DNA from: Bryobacter sp. CoA8 C33
Lineage (GTDB): Bacteria > Acidobacteriota > Terriglobia > Bryobacterales > Bryobacteraceae
NCBI GenBank assembly: GCA_019931185.1
Contig: JAINDK010000057.1
Span: 1 to 59,101 of the forward strand
DNA: 59,101 bases
Reading direction: 5' to 3'
The translations under genes and the position numbers were made by a program. The notes below the pieces were generated by a model. That model worked only from the letters and a program-made list of their open reading frames with translations. It had not been told where the DNA came from and made no database searches. Position 1 is the first letter of the stretch. The number at the start of each line of letters is the position of its first letter. Shown here one piece after another: positions 3,338 through 37,562 of this stretch.

Positions 3338-4381
3338 ATGAGGCTTGATCGCCTCCCGCTCCTCCTCTGCCTGCTGCTCGCCTTATCCGGAGCAGCCCTT
3401 TCGGCCGGCGTTGCCTGGGTCCAGTGGATCGGGACTGCTTCGAATAACTCCTCCCAGCTCGAGATCTGGCTCCCCTTGGCTGCCTCCGCGGGCTTGCACA
3501 CCGCCCCCTTCTGGTTGCGTTTGGCGGAGATAAATCCTGATTCTCAGCAGAGATACTACTCTCTTGCTGTCGCTGCGGATCCCCGTTGCCTCCCCGCCCG
3601 CCTCGGCCTCGCCTTGGCTGCCGAGTTCTCTGGCAACCGCACCCTCGCCCGCCACCACATCGACCTCGCTCTCACCCACCACAAAACCTATCGCGCGTTC
3701 ATGGCCGCTCTCACTCAGGCCGCTCGCTGGCATGAGGCCGAGCGCAAAACACAACTCGCCCGCCAAGCCCTGCGCTACTGCCCCCGCGATGCCAGCGGCG
3801 TCTTCTCTCAGTTGACTCTTGCCGAAGCCAATGCCTTACTTGCTGGCTCTCCCCCTTCGCGCCGACTGGAGTACTTCCGTTTCTTGCTCGGCCAGCAGCG
3901 ATGGCAAGACGCTGCCCTCTATTCGAGCCAGGTTGAAACCAACCTCGAGTCCCGACAATTACGTCTCGAACTCACCGAGCAATTATTCTGGCAAGGTCAG
4001 CAGCAGGCCGCCGCCCGCTTGTTTGCCGAAATGGAGCCGGACTTTGGGCGCACAGGACTCTACAACGTTGATTTTGCCCACCAGCCAAGCTCCCTCGCAT
4101 TCGACTGGCGATTGACCGCCGACCCGGCAGTCCGGCTCGACTGGCGCCCCGGTCAGTTGGCCGTCAAGCTGGAGCCGGTCACAAAACCAGTCGACATTGT
4201 GAGCATCCTGCTCGACAGCCGCCGCAAACCCCTCCGCTTCGCTCGGCCCATCTGGTCGGGCGACACCCGTGGTCTCAACTGGCAAATCACTACGCTCCGT
4301 CCCGGATGGCAGCGTGCCGTGCTGACCGCTCCCGCGGGCCCGCAACGCGCATTTACTCTTTCGCAAGTGAATTTTGAATGA
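3338..4381 (+). CDS. TPR-like envelope protein, partner of the O-antigen-ligase-like gene
   Basis: A 347-residue protein with an N-terminal membrane anchor (about 5-28). The middle (about 60-215) is helical and Ala/Leu-rich with a repeat character (LGLALAAEFSGNRTLARHHI, then further helix pairs), suggesting tetratricopeptide-like repeats. The C-terminal 110 residues look like a beta-rich domain. I do not recognise a named family. The ATG at 3338 follows an in-frame GTG at 3335 and neither has a clear ribosome site. It overlaps the next gene by 4 bases (ATGA), so a joint role in surface polysaccharide assembly is likely but inferred. Confidence 0.55.
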   Translation: MRLDRLPLLLCLLLALSGAALSAGVAWVQWIGTASNNSSQLEIWLPLAASAGLHTAPFWLRLAEINPDSQQRYYSLAVAADPRCLPARLGLALAAEFSGNRTLARHHIDLALTHHKTYRAFMAALTQAARWHEAERKTQLARQALRYCPRDASGVFSQLTLAEANALLAGSPPSRRLEYFRFLLGQQRWQDAALYSSQVETNLESRQLRLELTEQLFWQGQQQAAARLFAEMEPDFGRTGLYNVDFAHQPSSLAFDWRLTADPAVRLDWRPGQLAVKLEPVTKPVDIVSILLDSRRKPLRFARPIWSGDTRGLNWQITTLRPGWQRAVLTAPAGPQRAFTLSQVNFE

Positions 4382-5403
4382 AGCAAGCCATCTCGATTCT
4401 CATTCTCGCCCTGCTCCTGCTGAGCGCCGCGGACCCTGATGGCATTGCCTGGGCTGCCACCCGCGGACTGGCGCTGCTTGCCTGCCCTTGGTGGGCCCTC
4501 CGCGCCCCAGGCCCATTGCCGGAAGCTCTCGCCTTCGGCTTCGCCATGATCGCCGCCCTTGGACTCCCAGGGCTCGACTGGGCTCTGTTCGGTCTCATCT
4601 TTGCCCTTCATCCCTGGCGGCTGACGTCATTGGCCAGTCTGGCCCTCGCCGCCGGACTGCTCGGCGCGGCCACGATGGCTGTCCCCGGCCAGAGGCTGCT
4701 GCCTTTCGCCAATCGTAACCACTACGCCGTATTCGTCGAAATGAGTATCCCACTGCTTCTGTTCTGCGCCGAACGCGACCGCCGGCCCGTTCTTGCCGCC
4801 GGCGCGGCCATTCTGTTGGTGGCGGCCATCGCTGGCGGCTCCCGCACCGGCACCATCTTGCTGTTGACTCTCGTCATCCCCCTGCTTTGGCGCTGGCGTA
4901 ACGGCCGTTGGCGCTGGACAGCCCCCACTCTGGCTCTGGCGGGCTTCAGCTTGCTGTTTTGGGCCAGCCCTTCACAACGGATCCTCGATCCCCTCGCCGG
5001 CGATCATAGGCTCGAAATTTGGCAGTCCGCTCTCGCCATGATCGGACAACGTCCCTGGTGCGGTTGGGGCGCTGGCGAGTTCCCCCTCAGCTACCCCGCC
5101 TTTGCCCTCTTCGACAACGGTCAGTTCGTCAACGCAGCACATTCCGACTGGCTCGAATGGGCCGTCGAATTGGGCATCCCTTTCACCGTCGCGATCTTGG
5201 CCGCATTCTCGCTCTGGTTGGAAAAAAACATCCACTTTTATCCGTCTTGGGGTATTCTCATGGGTGCCGTGCATGCGAGCGTGGATTTCCCTTTCCACGT
5301 CCCGGGCCTTTTAGCCTTCGCGGTTGCTCTGGCGGGAAGTATTTCAGCTCATGGCGCCCTCATCGAAACCGAATCCCCAAATCGTCAAAGACGAGATCCT
5401 TGA
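4378..5403 (+). CDS. O-antigen ligase/polymerase-like membrane protein
   Basis: A 341-residue polytopic membrane protein with about nine or ten hydrophobic segments. It shows Wzy/WaaL hallmarks: NRNHYAVFVEMSIPLLLF near residue 117, SRTGT (about 155-160), then the large periplasmic loop with GWGAGEFPLSYPAF followed by AAHSDWLEWAVELGIPF (about 250-270), where the His is the usual catalytic position. The family transfers or polymerises lipid-linked glycan in the periplasm. It starts within the stop of the TPR-like gene and overlaps the next gene by 53 bases. No glycosyltransferases are nearby, so the substrate cannot be inferred. Confidence 0.75.
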   Translation: MKQAISILILALLLLSAADPDGIAWAATRGLALLACPWWALRAPGPLPEALAFGFAMIAALGLPGLDWALFGLIFALHPWRLTSLASLALAAGLLGAATMAVPGQRLLPFANRNHYAVFVEMSIPLLLFCAERDRRPVLAAGAAILLVAAIAGGSRTGTILLLTLVIPLLWRWRNGRWRWTAPTLALAGFSLLFWASPSQRILDPLAGDHRLEIWQSALAMIGQRPWCGWGAGEFPLSYPAFALFDNGQFVNAAHSDWLEWAVELGIPFTVAILAAFSLWLEKNIHFYPSWGILMGAVHASVDFPFHVPGLLAFAVALAGSISAHGALIETESPNRQRRDP

Positions 5404-12689: not shown

Positions 12690-13496
12690 ATGATTGAACA
12701 ATTGCGGCCCGGCGTCCACGCTAATGACGCCCGCGTCGTGCTCTTTGACTTCGATGGCACGCTCTCGCTCATCCGCACCGGCTGGGTGAATGTCATGGTC
12801 CCGCAGATGGTGGAAATCCTCGCCTCCCTCAAGACCGGCGAATCCGAGACCGAACTGAAGACGATCGTCGAGGATTTCGTCGCCCGCCTCACCGGCAAGG
12901 AAACCATTTACCAGATGATGGAACTCGCCGCGCAGATCCGCCTCCGCGGCGGCTCCCCGGAGGACCCCAAGGTCTACAAGAAAATGTACCTCGACGCCCT
13001 GCATGAGGTAATTAAGGATCGCCTTTCCGCCTTGCGTTCCAGCAAGGCCAACCCAGATGACCACATGGTCCCCGGCTCGCGCGCCTTGCTCGAGGATCTG
13101 CGCGCCCGCGGGCTCAAGCTCTATCTGGCCAGCGGCACCGATCACGATAATGTCGTCGAAGAAGCCCGCCTGCTCGATGTCCACCGCTATTTCGATGGCG
13201 GGGTCTTCGGAGCTCTCGATGACCTCAGCAAGTTCTCCAAGGCCCTCCTCGTCCGCCAAATTGTCGAGTCCAGCGAGTTTCGCGGCGAAGACTTTCTCGG
13301 CTTCGGGGACGGCTATGTCGAAATCGAAGTGGTCAAACAGGCCGGCGGTATTGCCGTCGGCGTTGCCTCCGATGAACCCGAATGCATCCGGATCGACGGC
13401 TGGAAGCGCAACCGCCTCGCCGGAGTCGGCGCCGACTTCATCGTCCCCAACTACGCCAACCTCGACGCCTTGCGCACAGTTCTGTTCCCCGCCTAA
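12690..13496 (+). CDS. HAD-superfamily phosphatase
   Basis: A 268-residue soluble hydrolase. Motif I FDFDGT at 19-24 supplies nucleophile Asp20 and acid/base Asp22; motif II is LASGTDHD (about 145); a conserved Lys follows in FSKALLVRQIV; and motif IV is GFGDGYVEIE (about 208). A helical cap (about 40-110) places it near phosphoglycolate-phosphatase-like enzymes acting on small phosphate esters. ATG 12690 has AGGAAAG nearby. It is the first gene of a compact operon with an unknown protein, two sugar kinases and a sugar isomerase, so a sugar phosphate is the likely substrate. This is inference from context. Confidence 0.85.
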   Translation: MIEQLRPGVHANDARVVLFDFDGTLSLIRTGWVNVMVPQMVEILASLKTGESETELKTIVEDFVARLTGKETIYQMMELAAQIRLRGGSPEDPKVYKKMYLDALHEVIKDRLSALRSSKANPDDHMVPGSRALLEDLRARGLKLYLASGTDHDNVVEEARLLDVHRYFDGGVFGALDDLSKFSKALLVRQIVESSEFRGEDFLGFGDGYVEIEVVKQAGGIAVGVASDEPECIRIDGWKRNRLAGVGADFIVPNYANLDALRTVLFPA

Positions 13497-13502
13497 CCTT
13501 AT

Positions 13503-14462
13503 ATGTCTTCCCGCTATACCGCCTTCGACCGCGGCGCTCTCAAGATTCTCCCGCTCAGCGAGCGCCAGCATGATCTGGAAATTGACAACTGGCTCTACCT
13601 CGACAGCCCCACACCTGAATTCGAACATCCCGATATGCCGGCCTTGACCCAGCGCATTCGCGCCGCTCGGCTAAACCGTCGTGCCGTCATCCTCATCATG
13701 GGCGCCCATGTCCTGCGCGCCGGCGTCAACCGCCACCTGATCGATCTCATCGAGCGCGGCTGGATCAGCCACATCGCCTTCAACGGCGCGGGCGCCATTC
13801 ACGACTATGAGCTCGCCCGCGTCGGCGCCACCACCGAGAGCGTCGCCCGCTACATCCGCGATGGCCAGTTTGGCCTCTGGCAGGAGACCGGCGACCTCAA
13901 CGTCTGGATCCAGGAAGCCGCCAAGCTCGGCTACGGCCTCGGCGAACATGTCGGACGCCGCATTGCCGAATCCAACTTCCCTCATCGCGATCTCAGCGTC
14001 TTTGCCGCCGCCTGGCGCAAGGGCATCCCCGCCACCGTTCACGCCGGTATCGGCTATGACATCCTCCACGAACACCCCAACTGCGACGGCGCCAGCCTCG
14101 GCGCCGCCAGCTATCGCGACTTCCTCATCTTTACCGAATCCATCACCCGCCTCGAACACGGCCTTCTGCTTAACTTCGGCTCCGCCATCATGGGCCCCGA
14201 GGTCTACTTAAAAGCCCTCGCCATGGCTCGCAACGTCGCCCACCAGCGCGGGGCCGAGATCCGCCATTTCACCACCGCCGTCTTCGACCTGATCCCCATC
14301 CAAGGCGATTTCCGTAAAGAACTTCCCAAAACCGACCCTGGCTATTACTTCCGCCCCCAGAAAACCATCCTCGTCCGCACCGTCGCCGACGGCGGAGAAA
14401 GCTTTTATTTCTGCGGCAACCACCGCGCCACACTCCCCGCCCTCTGGAGAATGCTCCAGTGA
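13503..14462 (+). CDS. Uncharacterised Rossmann-like protein of the sugar-kinase operon
   Basis: A 319-residue soluble protein with no signal peptide. Two glycine-rich strand-turn segments are clear: ILIMGAHVLRAGV (about 69-81) and HIAFNGAGAIHDYE (about 91-104), then GLGEHVGRRI, HAGIGYDILHEHP (about 181-193) and LLNFGSAIMGPEVYLKAL (about 222-239). The layout is faintly like deoxyhypusine synthase, which also has paired Gly-rich nucleotide loops, but the active-site Lys region is not recognisable. Conserved His/Asp/Glu in HDYE and HEHP could bind metal or phosphate. It lies 6 bases after the HAD gene and overlaps the PfkB gene by GTGA, so it is part of that pathway. Function unknown. Confidence 0.8.
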   Translation: MSSRYTAFDRGALKILPLSERQHDLEIDNWLYLDSPTPEFEHPDMPALTQRIRAARLNRRAVILIMGAHVLRAGVNRHLIDLIERGWISHIAFNGAGAIHDYELARVGATTESVARYIRDGQFGLWQETGDLNVWIQEAAKLGYGLGEHVGRRIAESNFPHRDLSVFAAAWRKGIPATVHAGIGYDILHEHPNCDGASLGAASYRDFLIFTESITRLEHGLLLNFGSAIMGPEVYLKALAMARNVAHQRGAEIRHFTTAVFDLIPIQGDFRKELPKTDPGYYFRPQKTILVRTVADGGESFYFCGNHRATLPALWRMLQ

Positions 14463-15451
14463 ACGCCAGCCGGATCCTTTCCGCCTTCGGCCAACTCAAC
14501 TTGCTCGTGGTCGGCGACATTTGCCTCGACCGCTGGTGCCAATATGATCCCGCCACCGCCGAGGCGTCCCGCGAAACCGGCATCCCCCGCATTGGCGTCC
14601 TTTCCTTCTCCTCCACGGCCGGAGCCTGCGGCACGATCGCCAATAATCTCTCCGATCTCGGCGTGGGCCGCGTCTCCCTGCTCGGCGCCATCGGTGAGGA
14701 CTCGCAAGGCGACGAACTGCTCGGGGCCCTCGCGCGGCGCAACATCGGCGCCGGTCTCGTGCTCCGTTCCCGGCTCATCCAAACCTTCACCTACACCAAA
14801 CACATCAACATCGAAACCGGCATCGAGGATCTCCCCCGCGTTGATTTCATCAACAATAGTTCTCTGCCAGCCTCGCTCGACCAGCAAATGGTGGATTGCT
14901 TTGAAACCCACGCGGCGTCTTTCGACGCCGTCCTCGTCTGCGATCAGGCCGAGACGGCTCGCGGCGGCGTGGTCACCGACCGTCTCCGGGCGGCAATCAA
15001 CCGCTTCGCCTCCGCCCATCCCACAAAACCCGTCTGGGTCGACTCGCGCAAGCGCGCCGAGTTGTTCACCCACTGCTACCTCAAGCCGAACGAGGACGAG
15101 GCCGCCGAGGCCGCCCTCCGCCTCACCGGCCAGACTGACTACCGCTGCCTCCTCCCGGCCCTTTCACTCCGCGCTCTGATCGTGACGGCCGGCCCGCACG
15201 GCGCCTGGATTCATGACAACGGCGGCGAGCGCTGGGTCCGTACCGTCTCCGTCGCTGCGCCCGTCGATATCTGCGGCGCGGGAGACAGTTTTTCCGCCGG
15301 CGCGGCCTCCGCCCTTGCCACCGGCGCCGGCCTCGATGACGCCGTCCACCTCGGCAACCTCGTTGCCAGTATCACCATCATGAAGCCTGGCACCGGCACT
15401 GCCTCTCCCGAAGAGGTGCTCGCCGCCGCCAGCCGCGTGGGCCGCCTATGA
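14459..15451 (+). CDS. PfkB-family sugar kinase (HldE kinase-domain-like)
   Basis: A 330-residue ribokinase-fold kinase. The N-terminus LLVVGDICLDRWCQYDP resembles the RfaE/HldE heptose kinase domain, AGACGTIANNLSDLG (54-68) is the substrate-binding glycine motif, and GAGD (273-276) gives catalytic base Asp276 with the anion hole. VWVDSRKR (192-199) and LKPNEDEA (208-215) also match HldE-type enzymes. No cytidylyltransferase domain follows. GTG at 14459 overlaps the previous stop. In context with a GmhA-like isomerase, phosphorylation of a heptose or related sugar phosphate is plausible. Confidence 0.88.
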   Translation: MNASRILSAFGQLNLLVVGDICLDRWCQYDPATAEASRETGIPRIGVLSFSSTAGACGTIANNLSDLGVGRVSLLGAIGEDSQGDELLGALARRNIGAGLVLRSRLIQTFTYTKHINIETGIEDLPRVDFINNSSLPASLDQQMVDCFETHAASFDAVLVCDQAETARGGVVTDRLRAAINRFASAHPTKPVWVDSRKRAELFTHCYLKPNEDEAAEAALRLTGQTDYRCLLPALSLRALIVTAGPHGAWIHDNGGERWVRTVSVAAPVDICGAGDSFSAGAASALATGAGLDDAVHLGNLVASITIMKPGTGTASPEEVLAAASRVGRL

Positions 15452-16305
15452 ACACGCTCGCCCTCGATATCGGCGGCACCAAGTTCTCCCTCGCTCTCTT
15501 CGCCGGCGAGCGTATGATCCTCCGCGCCTCGGAAGCCACGGACCGCTCCGGCGGCCCCGCCGCCATGCTCTCCCGCATGGAGGCCATCCTCGCCAATTGG
15601 CGCGCCAGCCACTCCATTGATCGCTGTGGCATCGGCTTCGGCGGCCCCGTCGATTTTGACAGTCAAACCGTCACTCTTTCCACCCATGTCGCCGGCTGGA
15701 ATGATCACCCCTTGGTCGAAACCATCAGCCGCCTCTCCGGCGCTCCCGTGGTCATCGACAATGACGCGAATGTCGGCGCCCTCGGCGAAGGAGTCTATGG
15801 CGCCGGCCGCGGCGCCAGACCGCTCTTCTACATGACCCTGTCCACCGGCATCGGCGGCGGCATCCTCGCCCCAGCAGGACTCTACCGCGGCGCCGATTCC
15901 TATGCCGGCGAACTGGGCCATCTCTCCATCCGCCCCGATGGCCCCGAGTGCCTCTGCGGCGCCCGCGGCTGCTTTGAGCGCATGTGCTGCGGCCTCTGGC
16001 TTGAACGTGACCACGGCCGCCCCGCCCGCGACCTGCTCACCGACCCCGCCTTCGTCGCCCGCTACGTCGTTGACCTCAGCCTTGGCCTCAAAGCCGCCAT
16101 CATGATTCTCAATCCCATGCGCCTCGTCATCGGCGGTGGGATCAGCAAGGCCGGCGACGCCCTGTTCGTCCCCCTCCGCGCGGAACTCCGCCGCCAGATT
16201 ACTTCCTGGTCCCGCGCCCGCATCGATGTCGTACCCGCACAACTGGCCGACGACAGCGTCCTTTATGGCGCTCTCGCCTTGGCTGAGGAGACCTTTCCCT
16301 TATGA
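15448..16305 (+). CDS. ROK-family sugar kinase
   Basis: A 285-residue kinase of the ROK family. The ATP phosphate loop is DIGGTK (7-12), the catalytic loop IDNDANVGALGE has Asp106, GGGI is near 136-139, and the zinc site has ELGHLS with His158 followed by CLCGARGC (Cys168, Cys170, Cys175). ROK enzymes phosphorylate glucose, N-acetylmannosamine, N-acetylglucosamine or fructose. The ATG at 15448 overlaps the PfkB stop (ATGA). There is no helix-turn-helix domain, so it is an enzyme rather than a NagC-type repressor. Two kinases from different folds in one operon suggest two phosphorylation steps or two substrates. Confidence 0.9.
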   Translation: MNTLALDIGGTKFSLALFAGERMILRASEATDRSGGPAAMLSRMEAILANWRASHSIDRCGIGFGGPVDFDSQTVTLSTHVAGWNDHPLVETISRLSGAPVVIDNDANVGALGEGVYGAGRGARPLFYMTLSTGIGGGILAPAGLYRGADSYAGELGHLSIRPDGPECLCGARGCFERMCCGLWLERDHGRPARDLLTDPAFVARYVVDLSLGLKAAIMILNPMRLVIGGGISKAGDALFVPLRAELRRQITSWSRARIDVVPAQLADDSVLYGALALAEETFPL

Positions 16306-16856
16306 CCTTTACTGCTTCTTACCGTGAAAAACTGATCGATACTCTCAATGCGCTCGACCTCACCCAAGTCGACCAGGCCATCGCCTGGCTCACCGAGGCC
16401 CGCGATGCCGGACGTACGATCTTCATGACCGGCAACGGCGGCAGCGCCGCCTCCGCTTCCCACTTCGTCTGCGACATGCTCAAGGGCGCCAGCTACCGGC
16501 AGGACAAACGCTTCCGCATCATGGCCCTCCATGACAACATGCCCACCCTCACCGCTTACTCCAATGATGTCGACTACCACGATGCCGCCCTTGAACAACT
16601 CAAGAACTTTGCTCAATCCGGCGATATCGTCATCGCCATCAGCGGCTCGGGCAATTCCCCCAATGTGCTCCGCGCCATCGAATACGCCAACTCAATCGGT
16701 TGCCGCACCATCGGCTTCACCGGCCGCGATGGCGGCAAGCTCGGCCCCCTCGTACAACTGCGGATTCACACCGCCGAGCAACATATGGGCCGCATCGAAG
16801 ACGCCCACATGATCGCCCTGCACATGATCTGCTACCAGTTCATGGACCTCAAATAG
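16302..16856 (+). CDS. GmhA-like SIS-domain sugar-phosphate isomerase
   Basis: A 184-residue SIS protein. NGGSAASASHF (45-55) and SGSGNSPNV (114-122) are the phosphate-binding loops, as in sedoheptulose-7-phosphate isomerase GmhA. By eye alignment, metal ligands His61 and His180 of E. coli GmhA correspond to His54 and His174, while catalytic Glu65 and Gln172 correspond to Asp58 and Glu166. These two changes make the substrate uncertain. It overlaps the ROK gene by 4 bases and ends the five-gene operon. DiaA-like proteins share the fold, but the operon favours a metabolic role. Confidence 0.85.
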   Translation: MTFTASYREKLIDTLNALDLTQVDQAIAWLTEARDAGRTIFMTGNGGSAASASHFVCDMLKGASYRQDKRFRIMALHDNMPTLTAYSNDVDYHDAALEQLKNFAQSGDIVIAISGSGNSPNVLRAIEYANSIGCRTIGFTGRDGGKLGPLVQLRIHTAEQHMGRIEDAHMIALHMICYQFMDLK

Positions 16857-24711: not shown

Positions 24712-25497
24712 ATGCCCTCCGCCACTCCCATCGAACGCCGCAAACGCTCCCCAGCGGCCTCGAAGTCACGCTCACCACGCCTCGCCCAAACCCTCCCCCT
24801 CGAATATCGCAATGACGATGTCACCTCCAAGCTCATCGGTCAATTCCGCGACATGATCGCCGACCGCACTCTCCTGCCCGGCACCCGCCTCCCCGCCGAA
24901 CGCGATCTCGCCCGCAGCTTCTCCGTCAGCCGCAACTCCCTGCGCCAGGCTCTCAAAGTCCTCGAGATCATGGGCGTCGTTCGCCAAAAAATGGGCTCCG
25001 GCACTTACTTATCCGAGGACGCTTCCTCCATCCTCACCGAGGCCTTCCGCTTCCTCCTCCTCATGGACTCGATCTCTCACGAAGAGCTCTATCTGACCCG
25101 CCTCATGATGGAACCCGAATTGGCCGCCCGCGCCGCCGAAAACGCCACTCTCGAGCACTTGCGCCAAATCTCCCGCGCCATCGAGTCGATGAAGGCGGCC
25201 GGCAATCATTTCCAGCGCGTCATCGAAGCCGATGTCGAGTTCCACAACCGCATCTTCGAGGCCGCCGGCAGCCGCGTCTGCCAGGCCGTCTTCACCGTCC
25301 TGCACCGCGCTCTGCTGCAAAGCCTCGCCATCACCTCGCGCGAAGTCAACGTCTCGCACACCCTGCGCTTCCACCAGCAAATCTACCAGGCTATCTTCGA
25401 CCGCACCCCGGAGCGCGCCCGCCAACTCATGCGTGAACACATCGAGGATGCCCACGCCGTCATGCGCACTACCCAAACCAAAGCGCGAGTTTCCTGA
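24712..25497 (+). CDS. GntR-family (FadR subfamily, FCD domain) regulator
   Basis: A 261-residue regulator with a basic N-terminal tail (about 1-30, RRKRSPAASKSRSP). The winged helix is at about 35-105 (LPGTRLPAERDLARSFSVSR, then LRQALKVLEIMGVV and GSGTYL). The all-helical FCD ligand domain (about 115-250) has Asp/His residues (EADVEFHNRIFEAA, HTLRFHQQIYQAI, REHIEDAH) that usually hold a metal and a carboxylate effector. ATG 24712 has AGGAG nine bases upstream; a longer frame from 24541 lacks a ribosome site. It lies 10 bases before the first PSD1 gene and is probably its specific regulator, responding to a sugar acid or similar product. Confidence 0.9.
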   Translation: MPSATPIERRKRSPAASKSRSPRLAQTLPLEYRNDDVTSKLIGQFRDMIADRTLLPGTRLPAERDLARSFSVSRNSLRQALKVLEIMGVVRQKMGSGTYLSEDASSILTEAFRFLLLMDSISHEELYLTRLMMEPELAARAAENATLEHLRQISRAIESMKAAGNHFQRVIEADVEFHNRIFEAAGSRVCQAVFTVLHRALLQSLAITSREVNVSHTLRFHQQIYQAIFDRTPERARQLMREHIEDAHAVMRTTQTKARVS

Positions 25498-25507
25498 GGA
25501 GACACAA

Positions 25508-27931
25508 ATGGCTCTACCAATTGCACTCATCCTCGCCGCCACCCTGCTCGCCGCCCAGGACCAGCGCATCGACTTCTTCGGAAAACAGGTCCGCCCCGTT
25601 CTCGCTACCCAGTGCTACGCCTGTCACGGACCAAAGTCCAAAATCGTCCAGGGCGGCCTCCGCGTGGACTCCCGCGACGCCCTGCTCCGCGGTGGCCATT
25701 CCGGCCCCGCCCTCACGCCAGGCAACCCCGCCGGCAGCCGTCTCATTCAAGCCGTCAATCACACTCTCAAGCCCACCATGCCGCCCTGGGGCAAGCTCAA
25801 AGCCGAGCAGATCGCCGCCCTCGAACAGTGGGTCAAGGATGGTGCTCTCTGGCCTGATCAACCCGCCACCCTCTCCTCCCTTCCCACCCCAGCCCCTTCC
25901 CCGGACCGCCGCTCCCATTGGGCCTGGCAGCCCGTACGGGACCCCGCTCCCCCCGCCGGGCCCGCCAGCCTCAGCCCCATCGATCGCTTCCTCCTCCAAA
26001 GCCTACGCCAAAAGCAACTCCATCCCAATCCCCCCGCCGACCCCGCCACCCTGCTCCGCCGCGTCCACATCGACCTCACCGGTCTGCCCCCCAGCCGCGA
26101 AACCATGCTGGCCTTCCTCGCAAGCCCCACCCCCAGCGCCTTTGCCCACATCGTCGATCAACTCCTTGCCTCCCCTGCCTTCGGCGAACGCTGGGGCCGC
26201 CACTGGCTCGATATCACCTATTACGGTGACACCCTCGACGCCGCCATCCCCGCCACTCAGGCCTGGCGCTACCGCGACTACGTCATCCAATCCTTTCACA
26301 ACGACAAACCCCTCAACCGCTTCATCCGCGAACAAATCGCCGGCGACCTCCTGCCCCACCGCGATGGCCTCGAGCAGCGCGAGCAGATCATCGCCACCGG
26401 CTACCTCGCCCTCGGTCCCTGGGCCCTCGTCCAGGCCGACAAGGAGCAACTGCGCATGGATGTCATCGATCTCCAAATTGATGCCATCGGCAGGGGCTTG
26501 CTCGGCCTCACCATCAGTTGCGCCCGTTGTCACGACCACAAATTCGACCCCATCGCCCAAAAGGAATACTTCGGCCTCGCCGGCATTCTCGGTAGTACCC
26601 GCACCATCCACGGCAAAGTCCGTGAAGCCGGCGTCTTTAGCGATGTCCGCCGCCGCGAACTCTTCGAGACACCCGAGGAGATCGCCGCGCGCGAGCGAAA
26701 TGCCCAAGCCTATGCCGAGGAAATCGCCTCGATCGAGGCCCGCATCCAAAAGCTCGAAGCTGAAATCGCTGCCCTGCCCAAGGACGCCCCCAAGACCGAA
26801 CGCGACCCCCTCACCGCTCGCCTCAACACCCTCAACCGCCAAAAATTGCTCGTCGCCTTCAACCAGCCCGCTCAACCCTGGGCCCATGCAGTCGATGACG
26901 TCGAACGTCCCGCCGATTGCCCCGTCAACATCCGCGGCAACGCCCATCAACTCGCCGCCCCCACCCCCCGCACCTTCGTCGCGGTCGCCATGTTCGGCGC
27001 CGGCGCCCCAGCCTTTCAAGGCAGCGGCCGCCTCGAGTTGGCCCATTGGATCACCAGCGATCGCAACCCGCTCACCGCCCGCGTCTATGTCAACCGCGTT
27101 TGGCAGCACCTCTTCGGCGCCGGCATCGTCCGCAGCGCCGACAACTTCGGCCTGCGCGGCGAACTCCCGTCTCATCCCGACCTGCTCGACCATCTCGCCT
27201 CCAGCTTCATGCGCAACGGCTGGTCCACCAAACAACTCCTCCGCACCCTCGTTCTCACCAACGTCTATCAGATGTCCTCCCGGCCCAATGCCACAGCCAA
27301 GGAAGCCGACCCTGAAAATCGCCTCTTCTGGCGCATGAACCCCCGCCGGCTCGACGCCGAAAGCATCCGCGACGGCATCCTCATGCTCGCCGGCCGCCTC
27401 GATCCCACCCGCGGCGGCCCCTCCCTCCCCCTGCACTCCCTCGAAACATTCAGTCCCGAAGGCGGTAAGGTCAACCCCCCCACCATGCGAGTCGCCGGAC
27501 TTCTCCCCGGCAACATCCGCCATCGCCGCACCATCTACCTCCCCGTCTACCGCGGCTTGCCCGTCGTCGAACTCGACCTCATGAGCCTATTCGACGCCGC
27601 CAGCAACGCCCAGGTCACCGCAACCCGCAACAACGCCGTCATCCCTACTCAGGCCCTCTACCTCATGAACTCCCCCTGGGTCCAGGAACAGGCCCAACAA
27701 CTGGCCAAATTGCTCCCCGGCGACCTTGCCTTCCTCACACGCCAGCGCGCCCGCTGGCTCATTGAATCCATCTACTCCCGCCCGGCCCGCGAGCGCGAAC
27801 TGGATCGCATCCTCGACTTCATCACCGAAACCGAGCTTAGCCTCAATAAGAGCCCCCAGCCCAGCACCGAAGCCTGGACTCAACTCATCCAGTCCCTTCT
27901 CATCTCGAACGAATTTCTGTTCCGGAGCTAG
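25508..27931 (+). CDS. PSD1 protein (cytochrome-like, DUF1549, DUF1553)
   Basis: An 807-residue exported protein: signal peptide (1-16), an N-terminal planctomycete-type cytochrome c domain with CYACH (36-40), DUF1549 (about 160-370, including DLTGLPPSRE and CARCHDHKFDP) and DUF1553 (about 515-790, including NPLTARVYVNRVWQHLFG). A short Glu/Ala coiled coil (about 400-440) lies between. PSD1 proteins are abundant in Planctomycetes, Verrucomicrobia and Acidobacteria; the biochemical role is not settled, though a link to polysaccharide or sulfated glycan degradation is often proposed. ATG 25508 follows GAGGAG. Two CxxCH sites may bind haem. Confidence 0.93.
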   Translation: MALPIALILAATLLAAQDQRIDFFGKQVRPVLATQCYACHGPKSKIVQGGLRVDSRDALLRGGHSGPALTPGNPAGSRLIQAVNHTLKPTMPPWGKLKAEQIAALEQWVKDGALWPDQPATLSSLPTPAPSPDRRSHWAWQPVRDPAPPAGPASLSPIDRFLLQSLRQKQLHPNPPADPATLLRRVHIDLTGLPPSRETMLAFLASPTPSAFAHIVDQLLASPAFGERWGRHWLDITYYGDTLDAAIPATQAWRYRDYVIQSFHNDKPLNRFIREQIAGDLLPHRDGLEQREQIIATGYLALGPWALVQADKEQLRMDVIDLQIDAIGRGLLGLTISCARCHDHKFDPIAQKEYFGLAGILGSTRTIHGKVREAGVFSDVRRRELFETPEEIAARERNAQAYAEEIASIEARIQKLEAEIAALPKDAPKTERDPLTARLNTLNRQKLLVAFNQPAQPWAHAVDDVERPADCPVNIRGNAHQLAAPTPRTFVAVAMFGAGAPAFQGSGRLELAHWITSDRNPLTARVYVNRVWQHLFGAGIVRSADNFGLRGELPSHPDLLDHLASSFMRNGWSTKQLLRTLVLTNVYQMSSRPNATAKEADPENRLFWRMNPRRLDAESIRDGILMLAGRLDPTRGGPSLPLHSLETFSPEGGKVNPPTMRVAGLLPGNIRHRRTIYLPVYRGLPVVELDLMSLFDAASNAQVTATRNNAVIPTQALYLMNSPWVQEQAQQLAKLLPGDLAFLTRQRARWLIESIYSRPARERELDRILDFITETELSLNKSPQPSTEAWTQLIQSLLISNEFLFRS

Positions 27932-30632: not shown

Positions 30633-32036
30633 ATGACCACCCGCCGCGATTTCTTCTCCCGTATCTCTGATGGCCTCATGGGCACCGCACTCGCCTCGCT
30701 TCTGGCCGAAGACCTGCTTGCCGAGCAGCGTCTCCACGACCTCACCCCCAAGAAGCCCCACCACGCCCCCAAGGCCAAGGCAGTCATCCAGCTCTTCCAG
30801 AACGGCGGCCCCAGCCAGGTCGATCTCTTCGATTACAAGCCGGCTCTCGAAAAGTACGCCGGCCAAGCCCCAGGCCGCGATCTCGCCGCCGAGGTCCGCG
30901 CCGTTCGCGAGACCGGCGGCCTCATGCCCTCCCGCTACAAGTTCCAGCGCCACGGCCAGTCCGGCGTCGAAATCTCCGAAGCCCTGCCTTACCTCGCCAA
31001 AGTGGCCGACGACATCACTGTCATTCGCTCCCTCCACACCACCCACCTCGCCCATGAAGCCGCCCTCTTCCTCATTCACGGCGGCCGCATCCTCCCCACC
31101 CGCCCCTCGCTCGGCTCCTGGATCACCTATGGGCTCGGCTCGGAGAATCAAAACCTCCCCGCCTACGTCGTCCTCGACGACCCCAAAGGCCCGCCCATCA
31201 ACTTCATTCAGAACTGGCAGTCCGGCTGGTTGCCCGCCGTCTATCAGGGCACCCGCGTCCGCTCGGAAGGCTCGCCGATACTCAACCTCCACGCCAAGTC
31301 CGAAGATCCCGCCGGCATTGTCGACCTCAGCCGCAGCCTCCTCCACCGCATGGATTCCAGCCATCGCGGCCGCCACCCCGGCAACGTCGAACTCGAGGCC
31401 CGCATCGCCAACTACGAACTCGCCGCTCGCATGCAAATGGAAGCCACCGATGCCCTCGACCTCAGCAAGGAATCCGAGGCCACTCGCGAGGCCTATGGCC
31501 TCAACGATGAGCGCACCGCCTCCTACGGCAAGCGCTGCCTCATGGCCCGCCGTCTCATCGAACGCGGCGTCCGCCTCGTGCAGATCTACATCGAAGGGCA
31601 AATCTGGGATAACCACAACAAGATCTGGGAGGGCCTCGATTACGCTTGCGGCAAGACAGACCGTCCCTCCGCCGCCCTCGTCGCCGACCTCAAGCAGCGC
31701 GGCTTGCTCGACTCGACCCTCGTCGTCTGGGGTGGCGAGTTCGGCCGCCTCCCCATCGCCCAGGCTCCCGGCGCCGCTGCCGGCCGCGATCATGGCCCCT
31801 CGGGCTTCAGCCTCTGGATGGCCGGCGGCGGCGTCAAACGTGGCTTCACCTATGGCACAACCGACGAGATCGGATACCGCGCCGCCGGCGACAAGGTCAG
31901 CGTCCATGACTTCCACGCCACCGTCCTCCATCTCCTCGGCATGAACCATCGCAATCTCACCTTCGTTCGTGACGGCCGCCACGAACGCATCACCGACGAG
32001 TTCCCCGCCCGCGTCGTCAACGAAATTCTCACCTAG
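30633..32036 (+). CDS. DUF1501 protein, Tat-type leader
   Basis: A 467-residue protein of the DUF1501 family (alkaline-phosphatase/sulfatase-like fold). The N-terminus TTRRDFFSRISDG is a twin-arginine-like leader. Family landmarks are VIQLFQNGGPSQVDLFDYKP (about 50-69), then IRSLHTTHLAHEAA, VVWGGEFGRLP (about 365) and DHGPSGFSLWMAGGGVKRG (about 388-406). His/Asp/Glu in these motifs would hold metal in a sulfatase-like site, but no substrate is established. SD AAGGAG precedes the ATG. It lies between a PSD1 gene and a second DUF1501 gene, the standard pairing. Confidence 0.92.
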   Translation: MTTRRDFFSRISDGLMGTALASLLAEDLLAEQRLHDLTPKKPHHAPKAKAVIQLFQNGGPSQVDLFDYKPALEKYAGQAPGRDLAAEVRAVRETGGLMPSRYKFQRHGQSGVEISEALPYLAKVADDITVIRSLHTTHLAHEAALFLIHGGRILPTRPSLGSWITYGLGSENQNLPAYVVLDDPKGPPINFIQNWQSGWLPAVYQGTRVRSEGSPILNLHAKSEDPAGIVDLSRSLLHRMDSSHRGRHPGNVELEARIANYELAARMQMEATDALDLSKESEATREAYGLNDERTASYGKRCLMARRLIERGVRLVQIYIEGQIWDNHNKIWEGLDYACGKTDRPSAALVADLKQRGLLDSTLVVWGGEFGRLPIAQAPGAAAGRDHGPSGFSLWMAGGGVKRGFTYGTTDEIGYRAAGDKVSVHDFHATVLHLLGMNHRNLTFVRDGRHERITDEFPARVVNEILT

Positions 32037-34925: not shown

Positions 34926-37562
34926 CTAGCGCCTCATCAAACTTTCATCCAGATTCAATACCGTGTTCGCCACCACCGCCCAGGCCGCGCGCACCACATC
35001 CGGACGCACCGGCTTGCCCAACTCGAGCGGCGCGACCGCCACCAACCCGGCGTCGAAGACCTGCCCCACGTTTGTGCCGTTGTTCCGCGTCGCCTTTACC
35101 GCGATCACATTGCGCCCCGGCCGGAACGCTTTCTGGCCCTCTGCCGTCAATTCATACTCATAATGCCCGGCCCGCTCGTACACCACGTTCGTTAGCGCCG
35201 GCACTCCATTCACCCAGATCTCGTGGGAACAGTTCGTCCGAATCGGCATCTGGAAACCGCTGGGCATCTTCTCCGGCAAATCCACCGCGATCCGCAGATA
35301 GATGCTCTCCGTGTCCCATCGCGTCCGCGCCGGCGTCGCCAGCGCCGCCGCCGAATCCGGCTTCTCAAAGTAACCAAAATAACCTGGCCCCGCCTTCCAC
35401 GGCGTATCGTCAAAATCAGCTTTCTCCCATCCCGCCACCGGCTCCGCCGTCTGATAGCGCCACTCCCGCGGCTTCGTCCGCGCATCCGGCAGCAGCGTTA
35501 CCGGCCGGTCTTCCTTGTACAGCACTTCATCAAATCGCGCCAGCTTCTGCGCGTTGCCGGGCTTCGCCCTCAGTTCGGCCTCGGCCTGCCGGTAAAGCAG
35601 CGCCAATCGTTGCTGCTCCAACTTGTTTGGCTCCCGCAGCAACACCCTCCGGAAGATCGCCCGCCCCGGATCCCGCGGCGATTCCGTCATCGCTCCCGCC
35701 GCCAGTTTCTGCGCCGCTTCCATGAATACCGGATCGTTCAGCGTCGTCAGCGCCTGCAGCGGCGTATTCGTGCGAATCCGCCTCACCGTGCACGTCTCCC
35801 CCGTCGGCGCATCGAAATTCATCATCGCCGGATACGAACTCGTGCGCCGCATGAATGTATAAATTGCCCGCCGGTAGCGGTCTTCACCCTGACTCGTCCT
35901 CCACGCATCCCCGTTGTAAACCACCTGCCACACCCCCTCCGGCTGCCACGGCATCACCGGCGGCCCATACATCTTCGTGCTCAACAATCCCGCTGCCGCC
36001 AGCGCCTGGTCCCGCACCACTTCCGCATCCAGCCGGAACCGGGCCCCGCGCGCATACCACTGGTTCTGCGGGTCCCGCGCCAGCAGATCCGGCGTCACCG
36101 CCGAAGCCTGCTGATACGTTGCGCTCGTCACAATCAACCGCAGCAGCCCCTTCGTATCCCACTTCTGCTCAAACTCCACCGCCAGCCAGTCCAGCAACTC
36201 CGGATGCGTCGGCAGCGCTCCCTGCGTGCCAAAATCCTCCTCCGTCTCCACAATGCCGCGCCCCATCAGACGGCTCCAATACCGGTTCACCGTCACGCGC
36301 GCCGTCAAGGGATTCTCCCGGCTCACCAGCCACTGCGCGAATCCCAAACGGTTCCGCGGCGCGTCCTTGTCGAGCCCCGGCAAAAACGCCGGTGTCCCGG
36401 CCTCTACCTCCTCTCCCGGCGTCAAGAAATTCCCCCTCTCGAAGATTCGCGTCTTGCGCTGCTTCCCGGCCGCTAACTCTCGCATCACCAGCGTCGAGAC
36501 CTCTTTGTTCAACCGCAGCAAAGGCCGGTCCGAAGCATGATCGTTGTCCTCCGTCTGGTTCAAAAACGCATACAGCTGATAAAACTCCTTGTGCGACAGC
36601 GGATCGTATTTATGCGTGTGGCACTGCGCGCAGCCCCAGGTCTGACCCATCCATACCTGCCCCGTCGTCGCCACCCGGTCCCGCACCGCTAGATCGCGGA
36701 ATTCCTCATCGTCCGTGCCCCCCTCGGTGTTCGTCATCGTATTCCGATGGAACCCCGTCGCCACCAGATCCTCCACCGTCCCCTCCGCCAGCAGGTCTCC
36801 GGCAATCTGCTGCACCGTAAACTGGTCGAACGGCAAATTCTCATTAAACGCCCGGATCACCCAATCCCGGTACGGCCAGATCACCCGGCGGTTGTCTTTC
36901 TCATATCCCTGCGTATCCGCGTACCGCGCCAGATCGAGCCACACCTTGGCCCACCGTTCCCCAAATCGCGGGCTCGCCAGCAACGCATCCACATATTTCT
37001 CATACGCCTCCGCGCCCGGGCTCCTCAGATACGGCTCGAGCACCGCCGCCTCCGGTGGCATCCCCGTCAAATCGAGCGCCACTCGCCGCGCCAGCGTCGC
37101 CGCATCCGCCGGACCCGAAGGCCGCAAACCCTTCTCCTCGAGCTTGGCCAGCACAAAGGCGTCAATCGCATTCCGACCCCACGCCTCATCCTTCACCGCC
37201 GGCAGGTTGCGCCGCTCCGGCTTGCGGTACGCCCAGTGCTCTTCGTATTTCGCGCCGCTGTCGATCCACCGCTTCAGCGCATCCACTTCCGCCTCCGTCA
37301 ATCGCGGCCCACTCGGCGGCATCGGCCGCGTCGGGTGCGTCACCCGCGCCACAATCCGGCTCTTGGCGCTGTCCCCCGGCACGATCAGGTTGTTCTTCAC
37401 CGCCGCCTCGCGCACGTCCAGGCGCACACCCGCCTGCCGACCGTTCTCGTCCGGCCCGTGGCACGCCCAGCACCGCTTGGCCAGGATCGGTCGCACCTCA
37501 GCCTGAAAATTCACCTGCGCCCCCAGCGAGGCCGCGCACATCATCATCATCCACAAGCGCAT
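34926..37562 (-). CDS. PSD1 protein with an inserted sugar-binding-like domain
   Basis: An 878-residue exported protein: signal peptide (1-15), cytochrome-like domain with CWACHG near 31-36, DUF1549 (about 110-320, with DLTGMPPEAA and CAQCHTHKYDP) and DUF1553 (from about 400, with NPLTARVTVNRYWSRLMG). Between about residues 690 and 850 an additional beta-rich segment interrupts DUF1553: WEKADFDDTPWKAGPGYFGY, SIYLRIAVDLPE, SHEIWVNGVP, RPGRNVIAVKA. These are hallmarks of galactose-binding-like domains of glycoside hydrolases. The last helix of DUF1553 (ANTVLNLDESLMRR) follows. This suggests direct glycan contact. It is divergent from the ferredoxin gene by 45 bases. Confidence 0.92.
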   Translation of the reverse strand: MRLWMMMMCAASLGAQVNFQAEVRPILAKRCWACHGPDENGRQAGVRLDVREAAVKNNLIVPGDSAKSRIVARVTHPTRPMPPSGPRLTEAEVDALKRWIDSGAKYEEHWAYRKPERRNLPAVKDEAWGRNAIDAFVLAKLEEKGLRPSGPADAATLARRVALDLTGMPPEAAVLEPYLRSPGAEAYEKYVDALLASPRFGERWAKVWLDLARYADTQGYEKDNRRVIWPYRDWVIRAFNENLPFDQFTVQQIAGDLLAEGTVEDLVATGFHRNTMTNTEGGTDDEEFRDLAVRDRVATTGQVWMGQTWGCAQCHTHKYDPLSHKEFYQLYAFLNQTEDNDHASDRPLLRLNKEVSTLVMRELAAGKQRKTRIFERGNFLTPGEEVEAGTPAFLPGLDKDAPRNRLGFAQWLVSRENPLTARVTVNRYWSRLMGRGIVETEEDFGTQGALPTHPELLDWLAVEFEQKWDTKGLLRLIVTSATYQQASAVTPDLLARDPQNQWYARGARFRLDAEVVRDQALAAAGLLSTKMYGPPVMPWQPEGVWQVVYNGDAWRTSQGEDRYRRAIYTFMRRTSSYPAMMNFDAPTGETCTVRRIRTNTPLQALTTLNDPVFMEAAQKLAAGAMTESPRDPGRAIFRRVLLREPNKLEQQRLALLYRQAEAELRAKPGNAQKLARFDEVLYKEDRPVTLLPDARTKPREWRYQTAEPVAGWEKADFDDTPWKAGPGYFGYFEKPDSAAALATPARTRWDTESIYLRIAVDLPEKMPSGFQMPIRTNCSHEIWVNGVPALTNVVYERAGHYEYELTAEGQKAFRPGRNVIAVKATRNNGTNVGQVFDAGLVAVAPLELGKPVRPDVVRAAWAVVANTVLNLDESLMRR

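Follow-up and report, generated by a model that had tools for sequence, protein, structure and literature searches.

Introduction

Heptoses make up the inner core of Gram-negative lipopolysaccharide. The adenosine diphosphate (ADP)-L-glycero-D-manno-heptose pathway comprises GmhA, HldE, GmhB, and HldD, and for its C6 epimerization we know of one textbook enzyme, HldD. In this study, we analyzed a five-gene operon of Bryobacter sp. CoA8 C33 that uses similar reaction types and contains a protein of the GSU2086 family, which is named after a Geobacter locus tag. The operon lies in a stretch of 59,101 nt (contig JAINDK010000057.1 of GCA_019931185.1), here called the window, which is contig C39 of the host genome G000 (5.05 Mb, 97.7% complete). 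Twenty relatives of this genome are labeled G001-G020, and L numbers denote individual loci.

The abstract of PMC10948575 describes ADP-heptoses as innate-immune signals. The Geobacter locus is formed by the consecutive locus numbers GSU2085, GSU2086, and GSU2087. In PMC5585712, these genes have electrode-growth transposon sequencing scores of -3.1 (GSU2085, hldE), -3.2 (GSU2086), and -3.7 (GSU2087, gmhA) and are tabulated with other surface-sugar genes; hldE is annotated as bifunctional there, and GSU2086 is labeled 'Hypothetical cytoplasmic protein in sugar biosynthesis operon'. The Geobacter locus thus shares a member of the same family and hldE/gmhA-like neighbors with the window operon, a likeness seen in the annotation, whereas the window operon has the kinase alone and adds HAD and ROK genes. 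A first-pass annotation of the window had called the 319-residue protein of the operon uncharacterized. This holds for its biochemical function, but the family already has an NCBIfam name, and a transposon phenotype of GSU2086 is published in PMC5585712. In the library covered, GSU2086 is named in one paper, and at least one of GSU2085, GSU2087, GSU2088, GSU2090, and GSU2091 in three. No function for a GSU2086-type protein was found among the listed publications on heptoses, deoxyhypusine-synthase-like proteins, arginine dihydrolase/ornithine cyclodeaminase, or Geobacter lipopolysaccharide, a weak negative given that subscription journals were mostly outside the coverage.

The operon is a genuine sugar-phosphate module of the heptose type, is conserved, and includes an uncharacterized enzyme whose predicted fold is of a nicotinamide adenine dinucleotide (NAD)-binding type. 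We favor, at a probability of about 55%, the reading that it encodes the middle part of a heptose-type sugar-phosphate pathway, which runs parallel to the classical ADP-heptose route or, in this genome, replaces it.

Operon Enzymes and Proposed Pathway

As listed in Table 1, the operon encodes a HAD-superfamily hydrolase, the GSU2086 protein, a PfkB kinase, a ROK-family kinase, and a SIS isomerase. The first-pass annotation had described five co-directional genes with 4-nt overlaps at three of the four junctions, which proved exact (+6, -4, -4, and -4 nt in order, with a 6-nt gap at the first junction). The resemblance to the heptose pathway that it had seen in this compact operon was also borne out, the kinase and the isomerase having their best matches in HldE domain I and GmhA. 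The PfkB protein matched the HldE kinase domain model TIGR02198 over its full length with 130.8 bits (cut-off 345, not passed), and its G273AGD276 motif was kept in 93 alignment rows. The SIS protein scored 103.5 bits on the GmhA model TIGR00441 (cut-off 209.45, not passed). The HAD motifs D20xD22G, S148GT150, K184, and G206D207 were near-invariant in 95 rows, and the hydrolase gave no match to the GmhB model TIGR00213 at E≤0.01. The ATP (DxGG), ExGH, and CxCGxxGC motifs of the ROK kinase were intact and near-invariant in 66 rows.

The positions of the SIS protein that we take to correspond to the metal-ligand residues H, E, Q, and H of GmhA read H54-D58-E166-H174 in 56 of 56 rows, compared with H-E-Q-H in GmhA (24 rows; E 96%, Q 96%). 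Read by eye, the isomerases of the clusters described below from a Chloroflexota plasmid, a Solidesulfovibrio plasmid, and G025 have the same H-D and E..H pattern. By these residues, the GmhA-like SIS protein belongs to a subfamily of its own. A GmhA-type isomerase is stated to contain zinc in a passage of PMC11056994. Compared with the ADP-heptose pathway, the operon has members below the cut-offs, an altered isomerase metal site, a phosphatase outside the GmhB model, an NAD-fold protein, and an extra ROK kinase; its nucleotidyltransferase lies outside the operon, and HldD was not found in the genome.

In the proposed pathway, for which we infer all substrates, the order of steps, the binding of NAD, and the epimerase role, the SIS isomerase would start from a ketose 7-phosphate, for which sedoheptulose 7-phosphate is the simplest candidate, and form an aldose 7-phosphate. 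The GSU2086 protein would hold NAD+ and oxidize and then re-reduce one sugar carbon without net redox change, most likely in an epimerization. The PfkB kinase would add a phosphate at C1, and the HAD hydrolase would remove the other phosphate as a sugar-bisphosphate phosphatase in the place of GmhB. An HldE-II type nucleotidyltransferase encoded on contig C15 could then activate the 1-phosphate for surface glycans, while the ROK kinase may be an add-on, perhaps for the salvage of free sugar. For the N-acyl sugar product that had also been suggested, nothing was found in favor.

ADP-Heptose Genes Elsewhere in the Genome

The first-pass annotation had stressed that the operon lacks a nucleotidyltransferase and had assigned its place to the ROK kinase and the unknown protein. 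Indeed, the operon has none, but an enzyme of the HldE-domain-II type is encoded elsewhere in the genome, at C15:124620-125036 (178 bits, cut-off 181.5), and a nucleotidyltransferase domain is fused to the kinase in the versions of a Solidesulfovibrio plasmid and G025. Strong HldE-II matches were present in 18 of the 21 genomes of the set (the host and its 20 relatives; 170-185 bits), six of them over the cut-off. A replacement by ROK was abandoned, given the C15 enzyme and the failure to find ROK in L137-L139, L141-L143, or the type A loci of other families. The orphan C15 nucleotidyltransferase needs a kinase and a phosphatase, and the operon could supply both.

The operon PfkB protein was the only TIGR02198 match of its genome at E≤1e-25 and the sole HldE-kinase-like match in 17 of the 21 genomes; G010 had none (the operon leaves the contig end there) and G015 had a partial one. 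An HldE kinase over the cut-off was found in 0 of 21 genomes, the nearest being those of G008 and G011 with 339 and 335 of 345 bits. In the host genome, there was no HldD match (TIGR02197) at E≤1e-40 and no GmhB match (TIGR00213) at E≤1e-30. Heptosyltransferases belong to glycosyltransferase family 9, matches to which were present in all 21 genomes, with five in the host. The host also has a GmhA homolog on contig C91 (192 bits, cut-off 209). It is clustered with genes for a ROK kinase, a Gfo/Idh/MocA protein, an SDR protein, an MFS transporter, and a flavin adenine dinucleotide (FAD) oxidoreductase (L188 3392-10857), a setting in which a phosphoheptose isomerase may serve catabolism.

Fold of the GSU2086 Protein

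The 319-residue protein had been regarded as the key to the operon, and this view was upheld. It matched NCBIfam NF052581, the GSU2086 family, with 382 bits against a cut-off of 250 (residues 8-316). This was its only NCBIfam match, and the name carries no function. In Pfam, it gave a sub-threshold match to the ArgZ-like C-terminal Rossmann family PF21570 only (19.8 bits, cut-off 27, 61 residues), and no match to the deoxyhypusine synthase family at E≤0.01. A single-sequence search of the PDB returned nothing up to an E value of 1. A family-profile search recovered ArgZ/AgrE (ArgZ 5e-6), 3c2q, and, weakly, 8put, and its alignment paired the stretch around H100-D101-x-E103 with HDxE of ArgZ.

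An AlphaFold2 model made with the window protein and 79 relatives had a mean predicted local distance difference test (pLDDT) of 86.9 and a predicted template modeling score (pTM) of 0.89. In the PDB, Foldseek matched it best to AgrE and ArgZ (E values between 5e-8 and 5e-6), to 3c2q, which is a LOR/SDH protein, and to deoxyhypusine synthases (E about 1e-6, TM-score about 0.5). Deoxyhypusine synthase, which the first-pass annotation had named for comparison along with NAD-binding folds, is thus among the nearest folds. AgrE/ArgZ, LOR/SDH proteins, and deoxyhypusine synthase use NAD in transient oxidation. The title of the structure 6lrg mentions NAD+. These results indicate that the GSU2086 protein has a predicted NAD-type fold of the deoxyhypusine synthase/AgrE kind. 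It differs from its best structural matches, the AgrE/ArgZ C-terminal domain and the archaeal LOR/SDH proteins, in having no arginine dihydrolase domain, in an identity of 12-15%, and in a sugar-type gene context. The likeness to deoxyhypusine synthase is one of fold, with 10-15% identity and no Pfam match, and bacteria are not known to have eIF5A. Deoxyhypusine synthase has a catalytic lysine, for which K237 of the GSU2086 protein, invariant in the alignment below, would be no more than a candidate counterpart.

An alignment of 28 rows (13 of type A, 14 of type B, and one of type C, the types being described below) had 34 invariant columns, including H69, H100, D101, E103, E112, H180, D186, D206, K237, D262, and R284. 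The active site therefore looks alike across the three types.

GSU2086 Types and Their Relation to GmhA and HldD

In a tree of 85 rows, the 52 rows of type B stood apart from the 33 rows of types A and C, each side with a support of 100, and type C was a long-branched group of four Bryobacteraceae (support 100). The host genome has one type A gene, that of the window, and one type B gene (C83; L124 8488-9444, minus strand). Type A was present in 15 of the 21 genomes of the set. In a phylum sample of 297 Acidobacteriota genomes, for which the genome lists were transcribed by eye, 93 genomes had 99 matches over the cut-off, 90 of type B and nine of type A; the sub-cut-off matches of G302 and G149 were left out of the carrier counts. 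Operon partners lay beside all nine type A matches, HAD and PfkB in eight and a fused kinase with SIS in one, and no ROK gene was found beside the type A genes of other families in this sample. Among 14 well-known control genomes, matches to the GSU2086 model were confined to three archaea and stayed below the cut-off; E. coli and Caulobacter, the two controls with HldD, gave no match to it.

The occurrence of type B was compared with that of the ADP-heptose genes at thresholds of our choice (GmhA E≤1e-20, HldD E≤1e-70, GmhB E≤1e-30). HldD was positive in 66 of the 297 genomes, in all of them over the curated cut-off. GmhA matches were found in 87 of 90 type B genomes and 64 of 66 HldD genomes, compared with 69 of 141 genomes with neither. 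No genome had both type B and HldD, 90 had type B only, 66 HldD only, and 141 neither (Fisher p 1.2e-12; p 4.4e-18 among GmhA-positive genomes only). For 125 GmhA-positive genera, the counts of both, type B only, HldD only, and neither were 1, 68, 18, and 38 (p 1.1e-6), and for 63 families they were 2, 36, 8, and 17 (p 0.010). Within family f23 (17 genomes), six genomes had type B, 10 had HldD, and none had both (p 5.7e-4). A same-strand gmhA gene lay within 1.2 kb of type B in 21 of 90 cases, and within 150 nt in 17 of these 21; two isomerases beside type B had scores of 196 and 200 bits with the TIGR00441 model, whose cut-off is 209. In at least four of the 66 HldD genomes (G159, G191, G199, and G245), it is hldD that is in place beside gmhA. 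The HldD matches of G047, G073, G107, G126, G170, G194, and G225, all of family f25, contain one in-frame stop (TAG or TGA) each, which could reflect a displaced gene end, an error, or a pseudogene.

These results suggest that the GSU2086 family could be a second, structurally unrelated and NAD-dependent heptose (phosphate) epimerase on the deoxyhypusine synthase fold. It would replace HldD in about one third of the sampled Acidobacteriota (type B, 90/297) and perhaps in Geobacter, and type A would carry out this chemistry in a parallel operon that has an isomerase, a kinase, and a phosphatase of its own. We regard this as possible but doubtful. For type B, an epimerase role is supported by the neighborhood, the fold, and the exclusion of HldD, to which types A and C form clear exceptions. 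If true, a substitute unrelated in fold to HldD would explain the type B genes in the 87 of 156 GmhA-positive genomes without HldD, a family named after a Geobacter locus tag important in electrode growth would gain a function, and the deoxyhypusine synthase fold would be extended to sugar chemistry.

Instead of catalyzing a step of the main route, the GSU2086 protein could serve as a regulator, a chaperone, or a detoxifying side enzyme associated with heptose phosphates. The 69 of 90 type B genes with no same-strand gmhA within 1.2 kb (contig ends may conceal some) would fit such a role, as would the uvrA-, coaE-, and queA-like neighbors of type B in three annotated loci; the 34 invariant columns, which point to an active site, and the position of the type A gene between phosphatase and kinase genes make it improbable. 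In the same-genus relative L125, the neighbors of type B are uvrA-like, CAAX-protease, and IF-2B-type genes, and the same neighbor clusters occur in L127. A role of the family as a replacement of GmhB was rejected as a general rule, many carriers having a GmhB match by eye.

Conservation and Variants of the Operon

Neighborhoods were counted for the best 80 of 357 relatives (GSU2086 protein 67-84% identical; record titles mostly Bryobacterales or Acidobacteria). A partner was scored as present by a blastp match of more than 70 bits to the window proteins, and only loci with room for it were counted. The HAD gene was upstream in 70 of 77 loci and PfkB downstream in 75 of 76, while ROK was present in 49, SIS in 34, and the complete five-gene set in 30 of 64. 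Because of these counts, HAD-GSU2086-PfkB is the firm core in these relatives, and ROK and SIS are variable; the lack of co-conservation that the first-pass annotation had set as a refutation thus applies by half, three of the five genes being co-conserved and two not. One of the relatives (L025), in a record titled Arcobacter sp., is 75% identical to the window gene and has Bryobacterales-type partners, and the assembled genome is probably mislabeled.

Six order-mates (L137, L138, L139, L141, L142, and L143) have HAD-GSU2086-PfkB-SIS, with no ROK detected. A divergent Gfo/Idh/MocA gene adjoins the operon in L138, L139, and L141 and lies 1.4 kb off in L142. The plasmid collection gave two matches to the GSU2086 protein and the phage collection none. 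In a Chloroflexota plasmid, HAD-GSU2086-PfkB-SIS lies inside a sugar-transport cluster with an ATP-binding cassette (ABC) sugar transporter, Gfo/Idh/MocA oxidoreductases, deoC, and a sugar isomerase, and a ROK gene is 11 kb away on the opposite strand. In the Solidesulfovibrio plasmid and in G025, an acidobacterial genome of another family, GSU2086 is accompanied by a SIS gene and by a fusion of nucleotidyltransferase and PfkB domains whose order, nucleotidyltransferase then kinase, is the reverse of HldE (L175 7188-8732; L123 10372-11988). The G025 fusion reached 95 bits with the HldE-II model and 122 bits with the HldE-I model, each under its cut-off, and split transketolase gene pairs lie near both fusion-type clusters. 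From these variants, the core shared by all is GSU2086 and the PfkB kinase, with HAD and/or SIS, and ROK is mainly a Bryobacterales addition. In G002, G006, G009, and G011, the operon is HAD-PfkB-ROK (with SIS except in G011) and lacks the GSU2086 gene, of which a type C copy lies at another place in the genome; G009 has in addition a short untyped match of 62 bits to the family.

The Chloroflexota setting is an argument for salvage or catabolism, in which a rare sugar taken up by the cell would be phosphorylated by ROK and PfkB and interconverted by SIS and GSU2086, and HAD would set the pools, with no nucleotide sugar formed. The Gfo/Idh/MocA genes at or near the operon in L138, L139, L141, and L142 and the transporter/oxidoreductase cluster of the C91 GmhA homolog point the same way, and ROK proteins are typical free-sugar kinases. 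Nevertheless, the five-gene run of the window contains no transporter gene, the Solidesulfovibrio and G025 versions have a fused nucleotidyltransferase, and the pairing of a phosphatase with a C1 kinase typifies activation rather than breakdown. The Geobacter hldE/gmhA locus moreover has its phenotype in common with surface-sugar genes in PMC5585712. We therefore consider salvage rather unlikely.

The transketolase pairs near the fusion-type clusters would suit a different C7 product, such as a cyclitol, a deoxysugar, or a branched sugar, for which GSU2086 would use NAD to cyclize or dehydrate a C7 sugar phosphate, the kinases and HAD acting as in C7-cyclitol pathways. Two kinases, a phosphatase, and an NAD-type enzyme recall the logic of acarbose and validamycin synthesis, and relatives of AgrE cyclize ornithine with NAD (compare the title of 6lrg). 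This product is distinctly improbable: a GmhA-like isomerase yields an open-chain aldose phosphate and would be superfluous for a cyclitol, ROK lies outside the shared core, and 21 type B genes adjoin GmhA genes.

Evidence Against a Heptose-Type Pathway

A number of findings weigh against the heptose-type pathway that we favor and against the epimerase role. None of the operon proteins passes any curated heptose-pathway cut-off. Since its metal-site residues differ from those of GmhA, the substrate of the SIS isomerase may have changed and may not be sedoheptulose 7-phosphate. Among the 50 Foldseek matches listed, the TM-scores to the model (0.43-0.55) and the identities (10-15%) were modest, and the transporter/oxidoreductase setting of the Chloroflexota copy looks catabolic. 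G011 has a kinase-isomerase-nucleotidyltransferase cluster in addition to the operon. Of the nine phylum-sample genomes with type A, at least five (G025, G124, G176, G184, and G262) had an HldE kinase over the cut-off, so the operon would be a second pathway there. For the same reason, a plain lipopolysaccharide heptose pathway in all carriers was ruled out.

With regard to HldD, the exclusion by type B is partly a clade effect, the family-level p being only 0.010 and the tests ignoring the species tree. Type A alone had a support of 44 and is no supported clade, and it occurs together with HldD in G044 and G070. Moreover, HldD lies tail-to-tail beside the type C gene in G002, G006, and G011 of the Bryobacteraceae. 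A strict rule that GSU2086 excludes HldD was thus rejected for types A and C and is valid for type B only. Among the 21 genomes, HldD over the cut-off was found in 0 of 15 with type A and in 3 of 6 others (p 0.015, weak for such related genomes). On one reading, HldD was gained where type A was lost; on another, type C and HldD simply go together.

Gene Coordinates and Neighboring Genes

The coordinates of the operon genes and their overlaps in the window are collected in Table 1.

Table 1. Genes of the operon and overlaps at their junctions (window coordinates).
Feature	Position	Strand	Details
HAD-superfamily hydrolase gene	12690-13496	+	268 aa; Pfam HAD 5.8e-14
GSU2086-family gene (type A)	13503-14462	+	319 aa; NCBIfam NF052581
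PfkB kinase gene	14459-15451	+	330 aa; GTG start; Pfam PfkB 1.2e-27
ROK-family sugar kinase gene	15448-16305	+	285 aa; Pfam PF00480 5.5e-49, 167.7 bits
SIS isomerase gene (GmhA-like)	16302-16856	+	184 aa; Pfam SIS_2 2.6e-18
GTGA overlap, GSU2086 gene stop/PfkB start	14459-14462	+	sequence
ATGA overlap, PfkB stop/ROK start	15448-15451	+	sequence
ATGA overlap, ROK stop/SIS start	16302-16305	+	sequence

The window also contains an O-antigen-ligase-like gene (Wzy_C) at 4378-5400, some 7 kb upstream of the five genes. Two large PSCyt1/PSCyt2/PSD1 proteins are encoded at 25232-27928 and 34929-37562, with a DUF1501 gene at 30633-32033.

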